DNA of 64,000 nt from Aneurinibacillus soli (GTDB lineage Bacteria; Bacillota; Bacilli; Aneurinibacillales; Aneurinibacillaceae), in NCBI RefSeq assembly GCF_002355375.1, contig NZ_AP017312.1:2745001-2809000 (forward strand), in the 5' to 3' direction. Below the pieces are notes generated by a model. It was not told where the DNA came from, searched no databases, and saw nothing but the letters and a program-made list of their open reading frames with translations. The first letter of the stretch is position 1. Every line of letters begins with the position of its first letter. Made by a program: the position numbers and the translations under genes. Below, one piece after another: positions 5,074 to 60,304 of the stretch.

Positions 5074-5084
5074 AATGTGAGAAT

Positions 5085-5808
5085 AAGCTGCCCAAAAAGT
5101 CAGAACATGGCGAACAGGGCAGCTTTTTTCGTGATATCGACAATGTGTAGTGGTCAGGGAGTAGGAGAAGGGATGAGCCGTTCGCTTGAGTACACTTGCA
5201 GGGAAGCTCTGACTGTCCGCTCCGGGAGCTCGGCGAACTCGCCCGCAAAGAAAAGCCCTCGATGCTAATTCACCGAAGGATTGCGGGCAGAAGCCCATTC
5301 GCCGTTCTCCCTCCGCTGAGTAGGCGCGTACAGGCGCTCTCTTGCTCTTCCCTTCTCCCACTCCCCGCACAACGTTTCGGTTTACAAAAAACGCGCAACG
5401 CCAGAATGGATTTGCTCGGATAGACACTGGCTTTTTGGAAGTCTGCTTTCTTTATTTTTTACCTGCATAGCAAAGCTCAACCTCTTGATTATGCTTGGGG
5501 CTTTTCATCCAAACTGTGTCAGGAGTGGGATCGGGCGGGGCAACGGAACGCCTGTACGCGATTCCCAGCGGAAGGGGACAGACGAACGGGCCTTTGCCCA
5601 CAATGCTTCGATGCACACACATCGTAGACATCTTTTGTGGGCGAGTTCGTCTGGCACTTGGAGCGGACAGTCCTAACTTCTTTGTAAGCGTACCGAAGTG
5701 ACGAGGCTCCGTCCGATCCCACTCCTCCACCACACTTTGGAGAACCCCCTCCCCAAGAAAAAAGAGACTGCCTCAACCGCTGTGTTACAGCTTTCGAGAC
5801 AGTCTCTT
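5085..5808 (-). repeat. Composite foldback repeat, copy A (complete, inverted orientation)
   Basis: Non-coding element between the convergent ABC-F and phoU genes. Order on the + strand: border hairpin with T-run (stem AAGCTGCCC 5085-5093 / GGGCAGCTT 5117-5125); beta module (5145-5373) whose outer arms carry GGGAGTaGGAGAAGGGA and its near-complement; conserved linker (about 5374-5515, with CTTTGCTATGCAG on the opposite strand); alpha module (5516-5735) whose outer arms carry GGAGTGGGATCGG at 5522 and CCGATCCCACTCC ending 5725; border hairpin (5762-5774 / 5796-5808). Inner stems pair CAGACGAAC with GTTCGTCTG and CCCACAA with TTGTGGG. Short ORFs inside are incidental. Orientation is opposite to copies B, E, F and G. 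Confidence 0.85.
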
Positions 5809-7782: not shown

Positions 7783-7965
7783 TTTTTCTCTCCCATAAAA
7801 TTATTTTTTGTTTGTAACTAACTTTATATAAGTATAATAAACCATTACACTTACTTTTGTCAAGTAACTATTATGAATCAAACCCATCTCTATTCCCCTA
7901 TAGTGACAATCTTGCAGTCGGTCATCTATGTATGCCTTCGCCTATGACGTTCATGTTCAATAGAA

Positions 7966-8012
7966 AAGAGGCTCTCTCAGTCACCATGTACTGGCTTGAG
8001 ACAACCTCTTCC
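7966..8012 (-). repeat. Solitary border hairpin of the composite repeat family
   Basis: AAGAGGcTcTCTCA (from 7967) faces TGAGACAACCTCTT (ending about 8010), with a loop containing CACCATGTACTGG. Stem and loop match the border hairpins of the composite repeats, here without any alpha or beta module. It lies just beyond the 3' end of the molybdopterin oxidoreductase gene and can act as its terminator. Either it is the scar of a lost element or the hairpin is the mobile or ancestral part. Confidence 0.6.
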
Positions 8013-12507: not shown

Positions 12508-12574
12508 ATCCTATCTTGAATTGGCTAGCATACATTTATGGCGTTCTGTACTATTGCGTCAAACCCTTTTAAAT
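12508..12574 (+). repeat. Left 67-bp direct repeat bounding the recombinase-remnant region
   Basis: Matches 16182-16248 at 63 of 67 positions; differences are near 12523, 12528 and 12562-12563. It runs from ATCCTATCTTGAATT to CCTTTTAAAT and contains TATGGCGTTCTGTACTATTG. The two copies enclose about 3.6 kb with recombinase fragments, so they may be attL/attR-like sites or a duplication made on insertion. Confidence 0.8.
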
Positions 12575-16181: not shown

Positions 16182-16248
16182 ATCCTATCTTGAATTAGCT
16201 AACATACATTTATGGCGTTCTGTACTATTGCGTCAAGTCCTTTTAAAT
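16182..16248 (+). repeat. Right 67-bp direct repeat
   Basis: 63/67 match to 12508-12574, same orientation. It ends TTTTAAAT, exactly where the left copy's terminator loop lies; beyond it the sequences diverge. See the left copy. Confidence 0.8.
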
Positions 16249-26633: not shown

Positions 26634-27322
26634 AAGCCTCTTTTCTTGGGTGAGGTTTTCTCCGAAGTGTGGTGGAGGATCGGGATCGGGCAAGGCCTCG
26701 TCACTTCGGTACGCTCGCTACGGAGTGGAGACTGTCCGCTCCAGGTGCCAGACGAACTCGCCCACAAAACATGCCCACGATGTATTTGCAGCGAAGCATT
26801 GTGGGCAAGGGCCCGTTCGTCTGCCTCCTTCCGCTGGGGAGTCGCGTACAGGCGTTCCGCTGCCCCGCCCGATCCCGCTCCTAGCACACTTTGGTTAAAA
26901 CACCATCAAGTAATATCAAGAGGCCAAGCTTTGCTATGCAGGTAAAAAATAAAGAAGCTGTCTTTCGAAAAGCCAGTTACGATCAAGCAAATCCATTGTG
27001 GCATCGCGTGTTTTTTTGTAAACCGAAACATTGTGCGGGGAGTGGGAGAATGGAGGAGCAAGAGAGTGCCTTTACGTGATTGCACAGCGAAGGGAGGACG
27101 GCGAACGGGCTTTTGCCCGCAATCCTTCGGTGAATCAACATCGGAGGATTTTCTTTGTGGGCGAGTTCGCCGTTCTTCCGGAGCGGACAGTCCTAGCTTC
27201 CCCGCAAGCGTAACCAAGCGAACGGCTCCTCCCTTCTCCCACTCCCTCACCACCACACGTTGTCGATTCTACAAAAGAAAGGCTGTTCCGCTCGCCATGT
27301 TCTGGCTTTGGGACAGCCTCTT
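26634..27322 (+). repeat. Composite foldback repeat, copy B
   Basis: Lies between nfo and a convergent gene. The left border hairpin is reduced to CAAGCCTCTTTTCTTGG. Alpha module 26667-26889: outer arms share GGGATCGGGC and its complement; inner stems pair CAGACGAAC with GTTCGTCTG, and CCCACAA with TTGTGGG. Linker 26890-27030 includes CTTTGCTATGCAGGTAAAAA. Beta module 27031-27262: outer arms GGGAGTGGGAGAATGGAGG and its complement with one mismatch; inner GGCGAAC/GTTCGCC and CCCGCAA/TTGTGGG (one G-T pair). Right border hairpin AGGCTGTTCC (27280-27289) / GGGACAGCCT (27310-27319). A 259-codon ORF crossing this copy is considered accidental. Confidence 0.85.
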
Positions 27323-28693: not shown

Positions 28694-28760
28694 CCTTTTC
28701 CTCCTTCATTTGTAGTCATTTCTATTTTATCATATTCATCTGCTGTTTTTTAGAAAAAAA

Positions 28761-29296
28761 GAGGCTGTACCAAAAGACAGAACATGGCGAACTGGGCAGC
28801 TTTTTGGTGGTATCAATAACGTTTGGTGGTAAGGGAGTGGGAGAAGGAAGGAGCCGCACAACGTTTCGGTTTACCAAAATCCACTCGACGCCAGAATGGA
28901 TTTGCTCGATCGCAACTGGCTTTTTGAAAGGCCGCTTTTTAATTTTTTAGCTGCATAGCAAAGCTCAACTTCTTGATATTGCTTGATGGTGTTTACCCAA
29001 ACTGTGTCAGGAGCGGGATCGGGCGGGGCAACGGAACGCCTGTACGCGACTCCCCAGCGGAAGGGGACAGGCGAATGGGCCTTTGCCCACAATGCTTCTT
29101 CTGAAATACATCGCGGGCACCTTTTGTGGGCGAGTTCGCCTGGCACCTGGAGCGGACAGTCCCAACTTCTCTGTAAGCGTACCAAAGTGACGAGGCCCCG
29201 CCCGATCCCGCTCCTCCACTACACTTTGGAGAAACCTTCCCCCAAGAAAAAAGAGACTGCCTCAGTCGCCATGTTACAGCGTTTGAGACAGCCTCC
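28761..29296 (-). repeat. Composite foldback repeat, copy C (beta module internally deleted)
   Basis: Same orientation as copy A. Left border hairpin 28761-28806 (loop GAACATGGCGAAC). Of the beta module only the first outer arm remains (AGGGAGTGGGAGAAGG, then GAGCCG), joined directly to GCACAACG at the module's other end, a loss of roughly 190 bp at a short CCG identity. Linker 28861-29003 intact. Alpha module 29004-29224 intact with perfect outer arms: GGAGCGGGATCGGGCGGGGC pairs all 20 bases with GCCCCGCCCGATCCCGCTCC. Right border hairpin 29250-29296. Confidence 0.85.
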
Positions 29297-30246: not shown

Positions 30247-30342
30247 CCGTCCGATTCCGATCCTCCACCACACTTTGAAGAAAGTCACACCAAGAAAAAA
30301 AGACTGTCTCAGTCACTATGATCTAGCCTGAGACAGTCTTCC
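30247..30342 (-). repeat. Composite repeat remnant, copy D (alpha end plus border hairpin)
   Basis: CCGTCCGATTCCGATCCTCC followed by ACCACACTTTGAAGAAA matches the outer end of the alpha module and its flank in copy A. Then comes a perfect border hairpin, AAGACTGTCTCA (30300-30311) / TGAGACAGTCTT (30329-30340), in terminator position for the U32 peptidase gene. The rest of the element is missing; the 200 bp before it show no matching sequence. Confidence 0.7.
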
Positions 30343-35782: not shown

Positions 35783-35888
35783 TTCTTATCAAGAGTGGCA
35801 GAGGGAATAGGCCCGATGATGCCCAGCAACCAGCAGAATTCTGCAAGGTGCTACATCCTACAGAACCAACTGTTCTGGCAGATGAGGA
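35783..35888 (+). ncRNA. SAM-I (S-box) riboswitch aptamer
   Basis: Contains the conserved core blocks in order: CTTATCAAGAG (P1 and J1/2), GGCAGAGGGA, GGCCCGATGATGCCCAGCAA (P2 and kink-turn region), GCAAGGTGCTA (P3/J3/4 core), then ATCCTACAG and the closing GATGAGG of P1. Binding of S-adenosylmethionine stabilises P1 and allows the terminator just downstream, shutting off expression when SAM is plentiful. Target genes are normally in sulfur/methionine metabolism. Here the next gene is a tnpB element; the original target was most likely the alpha/beta hydrolase at 37346. Confidence 0.93.
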
Positions 35889-40291: not shown

Positions 40292-41022
40292 AGATGTTCC
40301 CCCACTAATTTAAGATAAAACTGTAATATTGCTACTATCGAGTTATCCATCTCTCATAACCCTGCGATAGAGTTACGTCTATTACAAATAGATCGTTCGA
40401 ATAATAGGTGACTTTTATTAGATATGTACCAACCTCACTCCTAGAGTTTGGCTTGGATTTCTAATTAAATAGGTTTCTGTATGATTAATTTCTTCAATGG
40501 ATGGCCATCCTCATCACATTCCACCCCATAAAGACAACTGTCTTCATGGCAAATATTATTATAATGATTTTTTCGATATATTACAACATTATTATATTTA
40601 TCAATAAAGTTTTAAACATTTAAATATTCACATAATTTGTAAGAGAAAACAATATATATCGATAATCTTTTCGCGAGCGATTACTATTTCAAAAGAATTT
40701 ATAGCTCTCAGAAGCAAGGATCTTTATGGATTCATGTACATATCCATGAACCATGCCTTTATAACAAAAAGAAAAAGCAGTGCTTTACTTACTCAAAAAC
40801 ACTGCCCATTTTCTTACTCAAATTTATTTTATGATAAAAACTTTACCACATTAAATGGCTGAAACAGTTTTGGAAAATTTGACGACAATCTTGAAAATTT
40901 CCGTCATCATGACTGAGTGAAAGAAAGTGCATAGACCATAGATCACCCTTCAAGAAGCTGAGAGCCAGACAGGAAACCACCTTTTATAAGCTTAAATTTG
41001 CATCCTGCCAGAATGAAAAACC
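40292..41022. other. Non-coding AT-rich region upstream of sstT
   Basis: No gene recognised. It holds the sstT promoter region and a weak hairpin GCAGTG (40777-40782) / CACTGC (40800-40805) with flanking A/T runs. A short frame at about 40855 (MAETVLENLTTIL) ends after 21 codons and looks like a relic or chance. Confidence 0.4.
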
Positions 41023-41086
<64 letters not shown>

Positions 41087-41168
41087 CGACCAGTCAATAC
41101 CATTAACTCGCAACAAAAAAAGAAGGAACTTTGTCCCTCTCTTGATAGCAAATGCCAATACATCTCTG

Positions 41169-47813: not shown

Positions 47814-48722
47814 ATGAAAAAGTTATGGGGAGATACGAACCCTAAAACTCAATGGTCAAAACAGTATCGTTCTGTTCTGATTGCTATGCTTTCATGTACT
47901 TTTATTTTCTCTCCATCTGTTGGTAGTGCAACCATAATACCAAGCGATAACATTCAAGATAATTACTATATAGATGCAGAGACTAATGCTGAATTATTCG
48001 ACATAAACCTAAAAGCAGCTGAACAAGGAAATGTTAACGCTCAGTTTCTAGTGGGAGAGGCATATTATAATGGATGGGGAGTCCAGAAAGATACTAAAAA
48101 AGCATTTCAATGGTATCTGAAAGCAGCTACACAAGGTTATGCAGATGCGCAGTATGCAGTTGCCTATTCGTACGAAAAAGGTTTAGGGGTCTCCCAAGAT
48201 TATAAGCAAGCTTTTGGATGGTTTTTAAAAGCTGCTGAACAAGGAAATTCTCATGCTCAAAATACTGTTGGGTATTTTTATGTAAAAGGGATGGGCACTC
48301 CTAAGGATTATAAAAAAGCGATGCAATGGTTCATGAAAGCAGCTAACGAGGAAAATGCATATGCACAATATAATATTGGTCTTTTATATTTTCATGGATA
48401 TGGTGTTCCTAAAGATTACAAGAAAGCAATGGAATGGTTCATGAAGGCTGCTGAACAAGAAGATGAGGCTACACAATACAATATAGGTGTTTTATATGAA
48501 AGCGGATGGGGAGTTCGCAAAGACTATAAAAAAGCAATGGAATGGTACCAGAAAGCTGCTGAACAAGAATACGATAAAGCTCAATATAGTATAGGTACCT
48601 TATATGAAAATGGATGGGGAGTTGCTAAAAACTCTAAGAAAGCCATAGAATGGTATCAAAAAGCTGCTAAACAAGGTAATCAGGATGCACAGGTCCGGAT
48701 TAAAGCTCTACAAAAAAAATAA
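47814..48722 (+). CDS. Secreted Sel1-repeat protein
   Basis: 302 residues: a positively charged N-terminus then a hydrophobic signal segment (about 20-40, ending GSA), followed by seven Sel1-like repeats of 36 residues (AAEQGNVNAQFLVGEAYYNG type) from about residue 62 to 299. Repeats are strongly alike, with the core KDYKKAMEWFMKAAEQ recurring. Sel1 proteins are alpha-solenoid scaffolds for protein interactions. The gene is AT-rich compared with its neighbours and sits beside a transposase fragment, so recent acquisition is plausible. Ribosome site GGGGG. Followed by a long terminator. Confidence 0.92.
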   Translation: MKKLWGDTNPKTQWSKQYRSVLIAMLSCTFIFSPSVGSATIIPSDNIQDNYYIDAETNAELFDINLKAAEQGNVNAQFLVGEAYYNGWGVQKDTKKAFQWYLKAATQGYADAQYAVAYSYEKGLGVSQDYKQAFGWFLKAAEQGNSHAQNTVGYFYVKGMGTPKDYKKAMQWFMKAANEENAYAQYNIGLLYFHGYGVPKDYKKAMEWFMKAAEQEDEATQYNIGVLYESGWGVRKDYKKAMEWYQKAAEQEYDKAQYSIGTLYENGWGVAKNSKKAIEWYQKAAKQGNQDAQVRIKALQKK

Positions 48723-52618: not shown

Positions 52619-53884
52619 CTAGATGATATAATCCGACAGTTCTCGGGATACCTGCCCGAGATTACTACCGCGGACTTCCATATGATAATTCATGCCGTCC
52701 TCACTTACTTCTTCTCTCAGCACGTGCATGTGACGGTGCAGAAGAGCATGCAGGTCCCCCCGTGCAATCGGGATACGTAGCACATAACGGCTATGCTGCT
52801 TTTCAATCTGCTCCTCAATTTTGACAAGCAGACGGTTCATATCGTCCGCGCGATAAGCTGATACATACATCGCTTCCCCAGGCGTCGGCAACACCGGACG
52901 CTCGGATACTTGATCCATCTTGTTAAACAGTGTAAGACGCGGGATGGAAAGTGCATCAAGTTCACCAAGCACTTCATCGACGACTTCCATATGAATCGCT
53001 GCTTCCGGATGCGAGGCATCGACTACTTGAATGATGAGGTCCGCCTCTGCCGCTTCTTCAAGTGTCGAGCGGAACGCGGCAATGAGCTGATGCGGCAAAT
53101 CTTGAATGAATCCGACTGTATCGGTTACGACAATGTCCTGTCCACCCGGAAGCATCACCCGGCGTGCGGTTGGATCAAGCGTAGCGAACAGTTGATTCTC
53201 TTCTAGCACACCAGCATCTGTCAACCGATTGAGAACCGTCGATTTCCCTGCATTTGTGTAGCCGACAAGCGCCACCTGAAACACATCGTTTTTCTTACGG
53301 CGTTCGCGGTGTAGCTGGCGGTGGCGTTTTACTTCATCTAGATGCGTTTCGATCTCGCTGATACGGCGGCGGATGTGGCGACGATCGCTCTCAAGCTTCG
53401 TCTCCCCCGGTCCGCGCGTTCCAATTCCCGCACCAAGACGAGACAGTTCGGCCCCTTTACCAGTCAGGCGCGGTAGGCGGTAATTCAGTTGAGCCAGTTC
53501 CACCTGTAGCTTGCCTTCCCGCGAACGAGCACGCTGGGCAAAAATGTCCAGAATAAGCTGAGTGCGATCAATGACCTTGCATGGAATAACACCTTCGAGA
53601 TTGCGCACCTGCATCGGGGTCAGTTCATCATTAAAAATGACCACGTCTGCCTCAAGCTGCTCCACCATCATGTTCAGCTCGTCCACTTTCCCTTTTCCGA
53701 TATACAGGCGTGAATCCACATAATCCCGCCCCTGTGTCAGCACACCAGCTACTTCAGCCTGAGCGGTTTGCGTCAACTCCTCAAGCTCATCCATCGACAG
53801 GGTAAATCGGCGTTCATCGCTACCCTTCTTGTAGTATCCGACCAGAACGGCACGCTCTGTTTTTTGTTCATCGACAATATGTAT
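52619..53884 (-). CDS. hflX: GTPase HflX
   Basis: About 421 residues. N-terminal HflX domain ([20 protein letters not shown]) followed by a long helical hairpin ([20 protein letters not shown]), then the G domain: G1 GYTNAGKST (about 207), G3 [10 protein letters not shown] (about 252), G4 FNKMD (about 316) and G5 VSAYRAD. HflX splits stalled 70S ribosomes after stress. Start problem: a perfect AGGAGG (53899-53894) is followed nine bases later by ATA, then six bases on by ATT, with no ATG/GTG/TTG in frame. The only conventional in-frame start, TTG at 53941, is upstream of that site and without a ribosome site. I place the start at the ATA. Confidence 0.9.
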
Positions 53885-53944
53885 GGCTAACGCCCTCCTT
53901 TTCCTTCTTATCTTACCAAATGTGGGGGGAAAATACGACAAACT

Positions 53945-54520
53945 ACAAAAAAGAGCTTGGAGGGTTGGAGACTCCCCAACGTGCAGTGGAGGAGCGGAAA
54001 AGGAAGTCGCCTTTCACTTCGGTACGCTTTGCAGGGAAGTATAACTGTTCGCTCCAGATGACCGCCAAACTCGCCCACAAAAGATCAGGATGCTTTCTCG
54101 ATGAAGTGTTGTGGGCAAAAGCCCGTTTGTCTGTCCTCTTCCGCTGGGTAGCGCGTACAGGCGTTCCGTGGCGACTTCCTTCTCCGCTCCTGCCCACGTT
54201 TGGGCAGTAAACCATCAAGCCAATTTTTTGTAGCTTTGCTTTGCAGTTTTTTGTTTTTTTAATCCCAACTTTGTTGGGATGAGAGAAGAGAAAAGCAAGA
54301 GAGCGTCTGTACGCGCTACCGAGCAGAAGGAGGGCGGCGAACGGGGTTTTGCCCGCAATCCTTCTATGAAGAAGCATCCTTGTCCCCTTTTTGCGGGCAC
54401 GTTCGCTGGGCTTCTGGAGCGGCCAGTTTACGCTTCCTGCAAAGCGTACCTAAGCGAACGGCTTCTCTCTTCTCTCATCCCACCACCAAAGTTGCTCGAT
54501 TCCACAAAAGAAAGAACACC
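53945..54520 (+). repeat. Composite foldback repeat, copy E (diverged)
   Basis: Same order as B, F and G but widely diverged. Alpha module 53982-54200: outer arms GGAGCGGAAAAGGAAGTCGC and the complementary GCGACTTCCTTCTCCGCTCC (one mismatch), a different inner sequence from other copies but still paired. Inner stems are CAAAC/GTTTG where others have CGAAC/GTTCG, and CCCACAA/TTGTGGG. Linker 54201-54275 is shortened and diverged. Beta module 54276-54487: outer arms GGGATGAGAGAAGAGAAAAG and its complement with one mismatch; inner GGCGAAC/GTTCGCT, CCCGCAA/TTGCGGG. Border hairpins not clearly present. Lies between the AbrB-like gene and hflX. Confidence 0.8.
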
Positions 54521-55674: not shown

Positions 55675-55691
55675 CAGAAGCATTACGATGG

Positions 55692-56412
55692 GGAGGCTGT
55701 CTCACAAGCTAGAACATAGCGACTGAGGCAGCCTCTTCTTGGTGTAGGTTTTCTCCAAAGTGTAGTGAAGGAGCAGGATCGGGAGGAGCCTCGTCACTTT
55801 GGTACGCTTACGGGGAAGTTAAGACTGTCCGCTCCAAGTGCCAGGCGAACTCGCCCACAAAAGGTGCCCACGATGTATTCGCATCGAAGTATTGTGGGCA
55901 AAGGCCCGTTCGCCTGACCCCTTCCGCTGGGGAGTCGCGTACAGGCGTTCCGTTGCCCCGCCCGATCCCGCTCCTAGCACGCTTTGGTTAAAACATCATC
56001 AAGCAATATCAAGAGGCTGAGCTTTGCTATGCAGGTAAAAAATAAGGAAGCGGTCTTGCGAAAAGCCAGTGGCTACCGAGCAAATCCTTTCTGGCGTTGC
56101 ATGTTTTTTTGTAAAACGAAACGTTGTGCGGGGAGCGGGAGAAGGAAAGAGTAAGAGAGCGCCTGTACGCGCCTACTCAGCGGAGGGAGGACGGCGAACG
56201 TGCTTTTGCCCGCAATCCTTCGGTGAATCAACATCGCAGGCCTTTCTTTGCGGGCGAGTTCGCCGGGCTCTTGGAGCGGACAGTCAGAGCTTCTCCGCAA
56301 GCGTACCGAAGCGAACGGCTCCTTCCTTCTCTCACTCCCTCACCACTACACGTTGTCGATCCCACAAAAAAGCGGTCTCGTTCGCCATGTTCTGGCTTTC
56401 GAGACCGCTTCT
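55692..56412 (+). repeat. Composite foldback repeat, copy F
   Basis: Between convergent genes. Left border GAGGCTGTCTCA (55693-55704) / TGAGGCAGCCTC (55724-55735), loop CTAGAACATAGCGAC. Alpha module 55759-55981: arms GGAGCAGGATCGGGAGG and CCCGCCCGATCCCGCTCC (two mismatches); inner CAGGCGAAC/GTTCGCCTG. Linker 55982-56123. Beta module 56124-56356: arms GGGAGCGGGAGAAGGAAAG and CTTCCTTCTCTCACTCCC (with G-T pairs); GGCGAAC/GTTCGCC, CCCGCAA/TTGCGGG. Right border AAGCGGTCTCG (56370-56380) / CGAGACCGCTT (56400-56410), perfect, but with different stem bases from other borders. Confidence 0.87.
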
Positions 56413-59579: not shown

Positions 59580-60304
59580 ACGAGGCTGTCCCTAGAGCCA
59601 GAAAGTGGCGAACGGGACAGCCTCGTTTTTCTTGGTGGATGATTTATCAAAAGTGTAGTGGAGGAGCCCGGATCGGGCGGGACCTCGTCACTTCGGTACG
59701 CTTACGAAGAAGTTGGGACTGTCCGCTCCAGGTGCCAGGCGAACTCGCCCACAAAAGAGGCCCCACGATGTATTCGCATCGAAGTATTGTGGGCAGAAGC
59801 CCGTTCGCCTGACTCCTTACTCTGGGGAGCCGCATACAGGCGTTCCGTTGCCCCGCCCGATCCCGCTCCTAACACGCTTTGGTTAAACACCATCAAGCAA
59901 TATCAAGAGGTTGAGCTTTGCCATGCAGGTAAAAAACAAGGAAGTCGTCTTTCAAAAAGCCAGTGGCTATCGAGCAAATCCATTCTGGCGTCGAGCGTTT
60001 TTTTGTAAACCGAAACGTCTTGCGGGGAGTGGGAGAAGGGAGGAGCACGAGCGCCTGTACGTGCCTACTCAGCGGAGGGAGAACGGCGAACGAGCTTTTG
60101 CCCGCAATCCTTCGGTGAATCAACAGCGTAGGCGTTTCTTTGCGGGCACGTTCGCCGGGCTCCCGGAGCGGACAGTCACCACTTCCCTGCAAGCGTACCG
60201 AAGCGAACGGCTCCTCCCTTCTCCCACTCCCCACCACACACTTTCGATTCTACAACAAAAAAGGCTATCCTGTTCGCCATGTTCTGGTTTGGGGATAGCC
60301 TCTT
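59580..60304 (+). repeat. Composite foldback repeat, copy G (best preserved)
   Basis: Between convergent genes. Left border CGAGGCTGTCCC (59581-59592) / GGGACAGCCTCG (59614-59625), perfect, then TTTTT. Alpha module 59652-59876: arms GGAGCCCGGATCGGGCGGG and CCCGCCCGATCCCGCTCC; inner CAGGCGAAC/GTTCGCCTG, CCCACAA/TTGTGGG. Linker 59877-60017. Beta module 60018-60240: GGGAGTGGGAGAAGGGAGG pairs perfectly with CCTCCCTTCTCCCACTCCC; inner GGCGAAC/GTTCGCC and CCCGCAA/TTGCGGG. Right border AGGCTATCC (60262-60270) / GGATAGCCT (60293-60301), a compensated change from GGCTGTCC. Internal ORFs are considered accidental. Confidence 0.9.

Follow-up and report, generated by a model that had tools for sequence, protein, structure and literature searches.

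REPINs and BIMEs are REP doublets mobilised by RAYT. The repeat described here resembles them in its two inverted folding units with a spacer and in its occurrence as singlets in some genomes and doublets in others; however, its unit is several times longer. No units were found beside the two Y1 (RAYT-type) transposases of the source genome, and membership in the REPIN/RAYT system was rejected for this reason. The bcr1-bcr18 repeats of the Bacillus cereus group are likewise intergenic, MITE-like or structured, and often transcribed (PMC3446304), while bcr1 is set apart from the present family, by description, through its restriction to the B. cereus group and the link of its mobility to a TTTAT motif (PMC6542083). 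The MRSC-65-2 motif, a "mobile/repeat sequence candidate", also shows many copies per genome, a covarying structure and an occasional position near transposase genes, and its nature as RNA or DNA was left open (PMC11109978). Its published description is of one long stem bearing the repeat UYCCGG, in diverse phyla, whereas the present family has several helices with conserved internal motifs and occurred in only part of the Bacilli in the samples used. IS1272, a member of the IS1182 family, targets hairpins and removes the stem-loop by a blunt deletion as it inserts; IS1272/TnSha1 and their MITE derivatives resemble the elements reported here in terminal sequences, in the targeting of terminator hairpins and in the loss of the hairpin when they insert (PMC4923244). 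IS1182-family transposases with matching ends were present in related genomes. In contrast to these insertion sequences, the elements described here are non-coding and contain a multi-helix interior module that is missing from the IS, and the target hairpin is duplicated whole in one genome of another family (G205).

The window analysed comprised 64,000 nucleotides (positions 2745001-2809000 of a 4.117-Mb single-contig Aneurinibacillus-like genome, G000). Copy E (53982-54487) consisted of two long folding units approximately 80 nt apart. BLAST and profile searches of the window revealed the same unit pair in copies A, B, F and G, while half of copy C was lost (Table 1). The alpha and beta units had been treated as different stems by the initial annotation. 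Instead, the plus strand of alpha was homologous to the minus strand of beta, and the composite is thus one module used twice in an inverted array. The top strand of beta and the bottom strand of alpha, both directed away from the linker, are referred to as R. The module core is approximately 147 nt long, and its multi-helix fold was common to the window copies and at least 150 units genome-wide; copies A-G are therefore not isolated. The units are long imperfect palindromes with nearly perfect outer arms, the sequences of which are wholly different between subfamilies.

The arm sequences annotated initially were confirmed at their stated positions. These were the outer alpha arms of copy A (GGAGTGGGATCGG at 5522 and CCGATCCCACTCC at 5713) and copy C (GGAGCGGGATCGG at 29010 and CCGATCCCGCTCC at 29202), the outer alpha arm of copy E (GGAGCGGAAAAGGAAGTCGC at 53991, with a 95% complement at 54170-54191) and the outer beta arm of copy G (GGGAGTGGGAGAAGGGAGG at 60025, with its complement at 60213). 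The outer beta arm of copy E was also located (GGGATGAGAGAAGAGAAAAG at 54276), but its second arm at 54461-54485 was only a 92% complement and not an exact one. Paired border stems were found as annotated on the left (GGCTGTCC/GGACAGCC at 59584/59615) and right (GGCTATCC/GGATAGCC at 60263/60293) of copy G and on the right of copy F (GCGGTCTC/GAGACCGC at 56372/56401).

Table 1. Positions of the composite copies and associated features in the window
Feature	Position	Strand	Remarks
Copy E alpha unit (folded module)	53990..54191	-	Model core 54021-54161, minus; outer arms 53990-54011 / 54170-54191
Copy E beta unit	54272..54485	+	Model core 54306-54450, plus; outer arms 54272-54296 / 54461-54485
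Copy E linker, between both outward-pointing units	54192..54271	.	
Copy E left outer arm	53940..53966	.	74% complementarity with 54210-54236; may be a former terminal inverted repeat of the alpha unit
Copy E partner of 53940-53966	54210..54236	.	
Copy A beta-type unit core	5189..5334	-	
Copy A alpha-type unit core	5551..5694	+	
Copy A border hairpin, IS1182-type end	5082..5128	.	Repeat family D12
Copy B alpha unit core	26708..26852	-	
Copy B beta unit core	27069..27214	+	
Copy B right border hairpin	27275..27322	.	Ordinary terminator here in the sister genome, no copy B
Copy C alpha unit core	29039..29183	+	Beta unit lost
Copy C left border hairpin	28759..28805	.	Sister genome: hairpin GAACTACCGATTAGTCGGTAGTTC in place of the whole copy C
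Copy F alpha unit core	55801..55945	-	
Copy F beta unit core	56162..56307	+	
Copy F left border hairpin	55691..55737	.	
Copy F right border hairpin	56365..56412	.	The one part of copy F that the sister genome retains
Copy G alpha unit core	59695..59840	-	
Copy G beta unit core	60054..60199	+	
Copy G left border hairpin GAGGCTGTCCC..GGGACAGCCTC	59580..59626	.	
Copy G right border hairpin	60257..60304	.	In opposite orientation to the left border
Solo border-type hairpin without units	7964..8011	.	At a gene end; loop similar to composite borders; family D13
Fragment, alpha-side end	30247..30303	.	Family D15

Other features observed in the window included a SAM riboswitch at 35783-35888 (RF00162, 87.9 bits), a tandem tetranucleotide repeat (CTTA)n at 41015-41091, 108-nt in-frame repeats at 48010-48692 resembling Sel1/TPR-type protein repeats (putative), and a 67-nt direct repeat of 94% identity at 12508-12574 and 16182-16248.

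The paired arms were evaluated for compensatory changes. When 55 diverse units were aligned with MAFFT (A1), independently of the structure model, 93.9% of cells were paired (shuffled, 87.5%; slid, 32-49%) and double changes occurred in 22 of 41 pairs, with 149 doubly changed cells compared to 45±8 after shuffling and 9-27 after sliding. Two further alignments, A2 with other genera added and A3 with 60 units taken class-wide from many genera, were aligned to the covariance model and lean towards the structure; paired cells amounted to 92.2% and 90.9%, both sides had changed in 36 and 37 of the 41 pairs, and doubly changed cells numbered 285 (80±9 shuffled) and 537 (157±11 shuffled), respectively. 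RNAalifold recovered 33 pairs, and compensatory changes were present in 30 of these. On the tree, 35 same-branch double changes were counted compared to 8.6 expected (maximum 18 in 2000), and those preserving pairing numbered 24 compared to 1.5 with re-dealt partners (maximum 8). By this tree-aware count and the class-wide result, the reported changes in the paired arms are real. The R-scape-type analysis that had been suggested was approximated, with a divided outcome: the structure-focused tests were strong, but an all-against-all tree-null statistic returned a single pair at E<=0.05, and weight was therefore placed on the former. Covariation exceeded phylogeny in the tree-event test, and the all-pairs null was weak.

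The orthologous copy E of the sister genome G006 demonstrated compensation in both the outer alpha stem (GGAAGTCGCC/GGCGACTTCC versus GGCAGGCGTC/GACGCCTGCC) and an inner stem (CCCACAA/TTGTGGG versus CCCATAA/TTATGGG). Its alpha unit resembled a different subfamily, and the differences in copy E may be due in part to conversion between paralogous copies. A candidate pseudoknot, GTACGC/GCGTAC, was rejected as an ordinary nested helix.

Such compensation had been attributed by the initial annotation to either selection on a folded RNA or single-stranded DNA, or conversion through a cruciform. In the latter case, template switching or conversion between the arms of an extruded cruciform would produce matching arms with no selection for the fold, and both the palindromic form of the units and their near-perfect, subfamily-specific outer arms are consistent with this. 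However, correction would erase unpaired loops, and the unpaired motifs AGCGG, GCGGACAGU and CUUCC.UGC were kept in distant genera while the surrounding stems were wholly replaced. Across genera, CCAGCGGA, GCGGACAGU and CUUCC.UGC were at least as conserved as paired columns, although unpaired. The persistence of these loops between perfect stems counts against correction, as does the isolated single pair change carried by 18 of the 21 branches with compensations. Correction should also treat both types of mismatch alike, whereas G·U exceeded A·C on R, at 57:10 in the broad model alignment and at 46:14 in the MAFFT alignment, where 16 pairs favoured G·U and one favoured A·C. The within-genus ratio of 187:101 was demoted as a decisive strand test, since unpaired columns showed a similar C/U excess and A-U pairs lean the other way. 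The broader and MAFFT counts restore the strand argument in part only; they lean towards the strand-specific G·U preference that had been suggested as a test, but a mutation bias observed within the genus explains part of it. The counts point to R as the folded strand, while wobble pairing does not separate RNA from single-stranded DNA. Neither a lack of conserved unpaired loops nor equal mismatch types, the marks of an arm-corrected palindrome, could be observed. There is good support for selection on the fold; conversion is disfavoured as the main cause of the compensation, and arm-to-arm correction free of selection is very improbable.

In the unpaired columns of alpha and beta units of G000 and G006, C/U transitions exceeded G/A transitions on the R strand. 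This excess could come from transcription or single-stranded exposure.

DNA queries retrieved tens of copies from the source genome, and a covariance model identified at least 150 units there. The model also identified 90 units in G006, 22 in G007 (another genus), 13 in Aneurinibacillus terranovensis (G008) and 6 in G005. With a broader model, 61 of 400 Bacilli genomes, belonging to 24 of 145 genera, contained the family. The source genome was the sole match at E<=1e-5 in a phylum sample of 399 genomes, indicating that false positives are rare. A pattern search of contigs, in named collections that exclude the source genome, named A. terranovensis and A. danicus as family members; 9 of its 12 matches were rejected, as they look like chance matches in coding DNA. 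Outward doublets recurred in other genera (loci L137, L166, L167, L169, L175 and L176), which makes the doublet a recurring architecture. Searches of Rfam gave no match at the gathering threshold in these regions and none at E<=1 in loci L001, L062 and L031, searches of viral and plasmid sequences gave no match to the family, and no description of it was found in the open-access literature. The structured repeat family was apparently undescribed before.

Comparison of the window with G006 revealed that copies E and G were common to both genomes. Copies B and C were missing from G006, where ordinary terminator hairpins occupied exactly those sites, and the reverse case was also observed, with a G006-specific copy where G000 has a terminator. 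At the site of copy F in G006 the right border hairpin alone remains, which may represent a deletion. The border hairpins of the composites (AAGAGGCTGTCTCAAAAGC...) resembled IS1182-family ends in G005 (AAGAGGGTGTCCCAAAAG...TTTTGAGACAGCCTCTT, L108) and G205 (GAGGGTGTCCCAAAAGCCATG..., L202), and the transposases of both genomes were far above the NCBIfam IS1182 cut-off (NF033551). The solo modules of G205 sat in elements of approximately 265 bp with ends TGTAGACAAA...TTTGTCTACAG, and these elements shared their ends and target habit with a resident IS1182 element (L197/L198). In 8 of the 12 G205 copies the flanking segment was directly duplicated with a score above 300 shuffles, and in most of the 8 the duplicated segment was a recognisable terminator-like hairpin. 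Terminal inverted repeats in common with an IS1182 element were found for the G205 solo elements, and resemblance to IS1182 ends for the G000 composite borders, but neither for copy E, which has no IS1182 borders; palindrome or terminator targets were found for copies B and C, the G006-specific site and the 8 G205 copies. Hairpin targeting has two outcomes within one transposase family, whole-hairpin duplication (G205) versus deletion (IS1272-type). The initial annotation could not have revealed that the repeats are mobile elements, that their ends are of IS1182 type, that terminators are their targets or how widely they occur.

Whole terminator hairpins, about 20-32 bp, were duplicated directly at IS1182-family elements and solo MITEs of G205 (L177-L189, L197-L201). 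The loops of terminators are the insertion sites of a second IS1182-family group in G005 (L115-L118; ends GAGGCCACTGAAAAAGTC), whose target duplications measure about 8-9 bp. ISL3 was considered as the frame of the G005 solo units (GGGTCTACATCAAAC..TGTGCTTGAC ends) and rejected, since only decayed ISL3 copies with no matching ends were present.

No match to the IS1182-type transposase domain PF05598 was found in the source genome, and mobility there may therefore be past, or due to mobilisation in trans by something else. IS1182 elements carrying the module inside were rejected, as the doublet at L212 lies outside the neighbouring IS. Because the IS1182 elements lack the module, the data do not call for a role of the module in their transposition. 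It is rather unlikely that the module is an element-encoded RNA that guides a bound IS1182-type transposase to DNA hairpins, outward RNA doublets having spread in many Bacilli by copying themselves into terminators; if true, this would be a form of RNA-assisted DNA transposition.

The elements were situated close to stop codons, and flanking genes were convergent in 24 of 46 cases compared to 29 of 142 background pairs, based on uncurated ORF calls. Such positions immediately downstream of stop codons or between genes that converge, together with terminator-like border hairpins and the transcribed repeats known from the bcr families (PMC3446304), would suit domesticated 3'-end structures retained for transcription termination or mRNA stabilisation. 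However, the sister species is without several copies and has other terminators at those sites, solo units had no orientation preference relative to the flanking genes, and terminator targeting alone explains the location; a retained 3'-end role is hence considered improbable. Copy E is directly upstream of a minus-strand gene (52619-53941), which is putatively hflX-like. A uORF motif upstream of hflX has been described in Bacillales (PMC8632094).

The module could also be an RNA gene itself, trans-acting or protein-binding, with units transcribed divergently from the linker and hitch-hiking in IS1182-type or other frames. This would agree with the G·U preference on one strand, a small conserved hairpin that contains a G·U pair when read along R, the conserved 5' leader and A6GGGAG/CTCCCT6 closing stem of the G007 copies, and the presence of the same module within different end types. 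Nevertheless, no convincing promoter was seen in the linkers examined, a single RNA gene rarely occurs in more than 150 copies per genome, and the units had no conserved neighbouring gene and a random orientation to those flanking them, so that an RNA gene alone is possible but doubtful. An ORF in the linker (MQVKNKEAVF...) was rejected, as it was 3 to 144 codons long and its start was missing in 15 of 38 copies.

The composites are probably non-autonomous, MITE-like elements of IS1182 type that target terminators and carry a fold-selected module, in most cases as an outward pair, these features forming a joint explanation. Each composite carries two module copies, with the R strand of each pointing outward from a short linker, in a frame ending in IS1182-family-type terminal sequences. 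Insertion takes place into transcription-terminator hairpins, which are replaced in the genus of the source genome or duplicated whole in G205, and IS1182-family transposases presumably move the elements in trans. Compensation would reflect a need of the module to fold in single-stranded form, more probably as RNA than as single-stranded DNA, a broken stem leading to loss of mobility or function; arm-to-arm repair would be a minor contributor at most. The first job of the module may be that of a cis signal for the transposition machinery or a helper host protein, which is the least certain step. The random orientation to flanking genes argues for a cis signal rather than a service to a neighbouring gene, and the module may act as a mobilisation signal, an RNA gene or both.

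The findings connect an elaborate folded module with transposition of IS1182 type that is directed at terminators, in which a whole-hairpin mode of target duplication could be seen. The fold has been kept while the sequence was almost wholly replaced, in a family which occurs in part of the Bacilli and is not in Rfam. Why many bacterial repeats keep elaborate palindromic folds is an old question, which is now testable.
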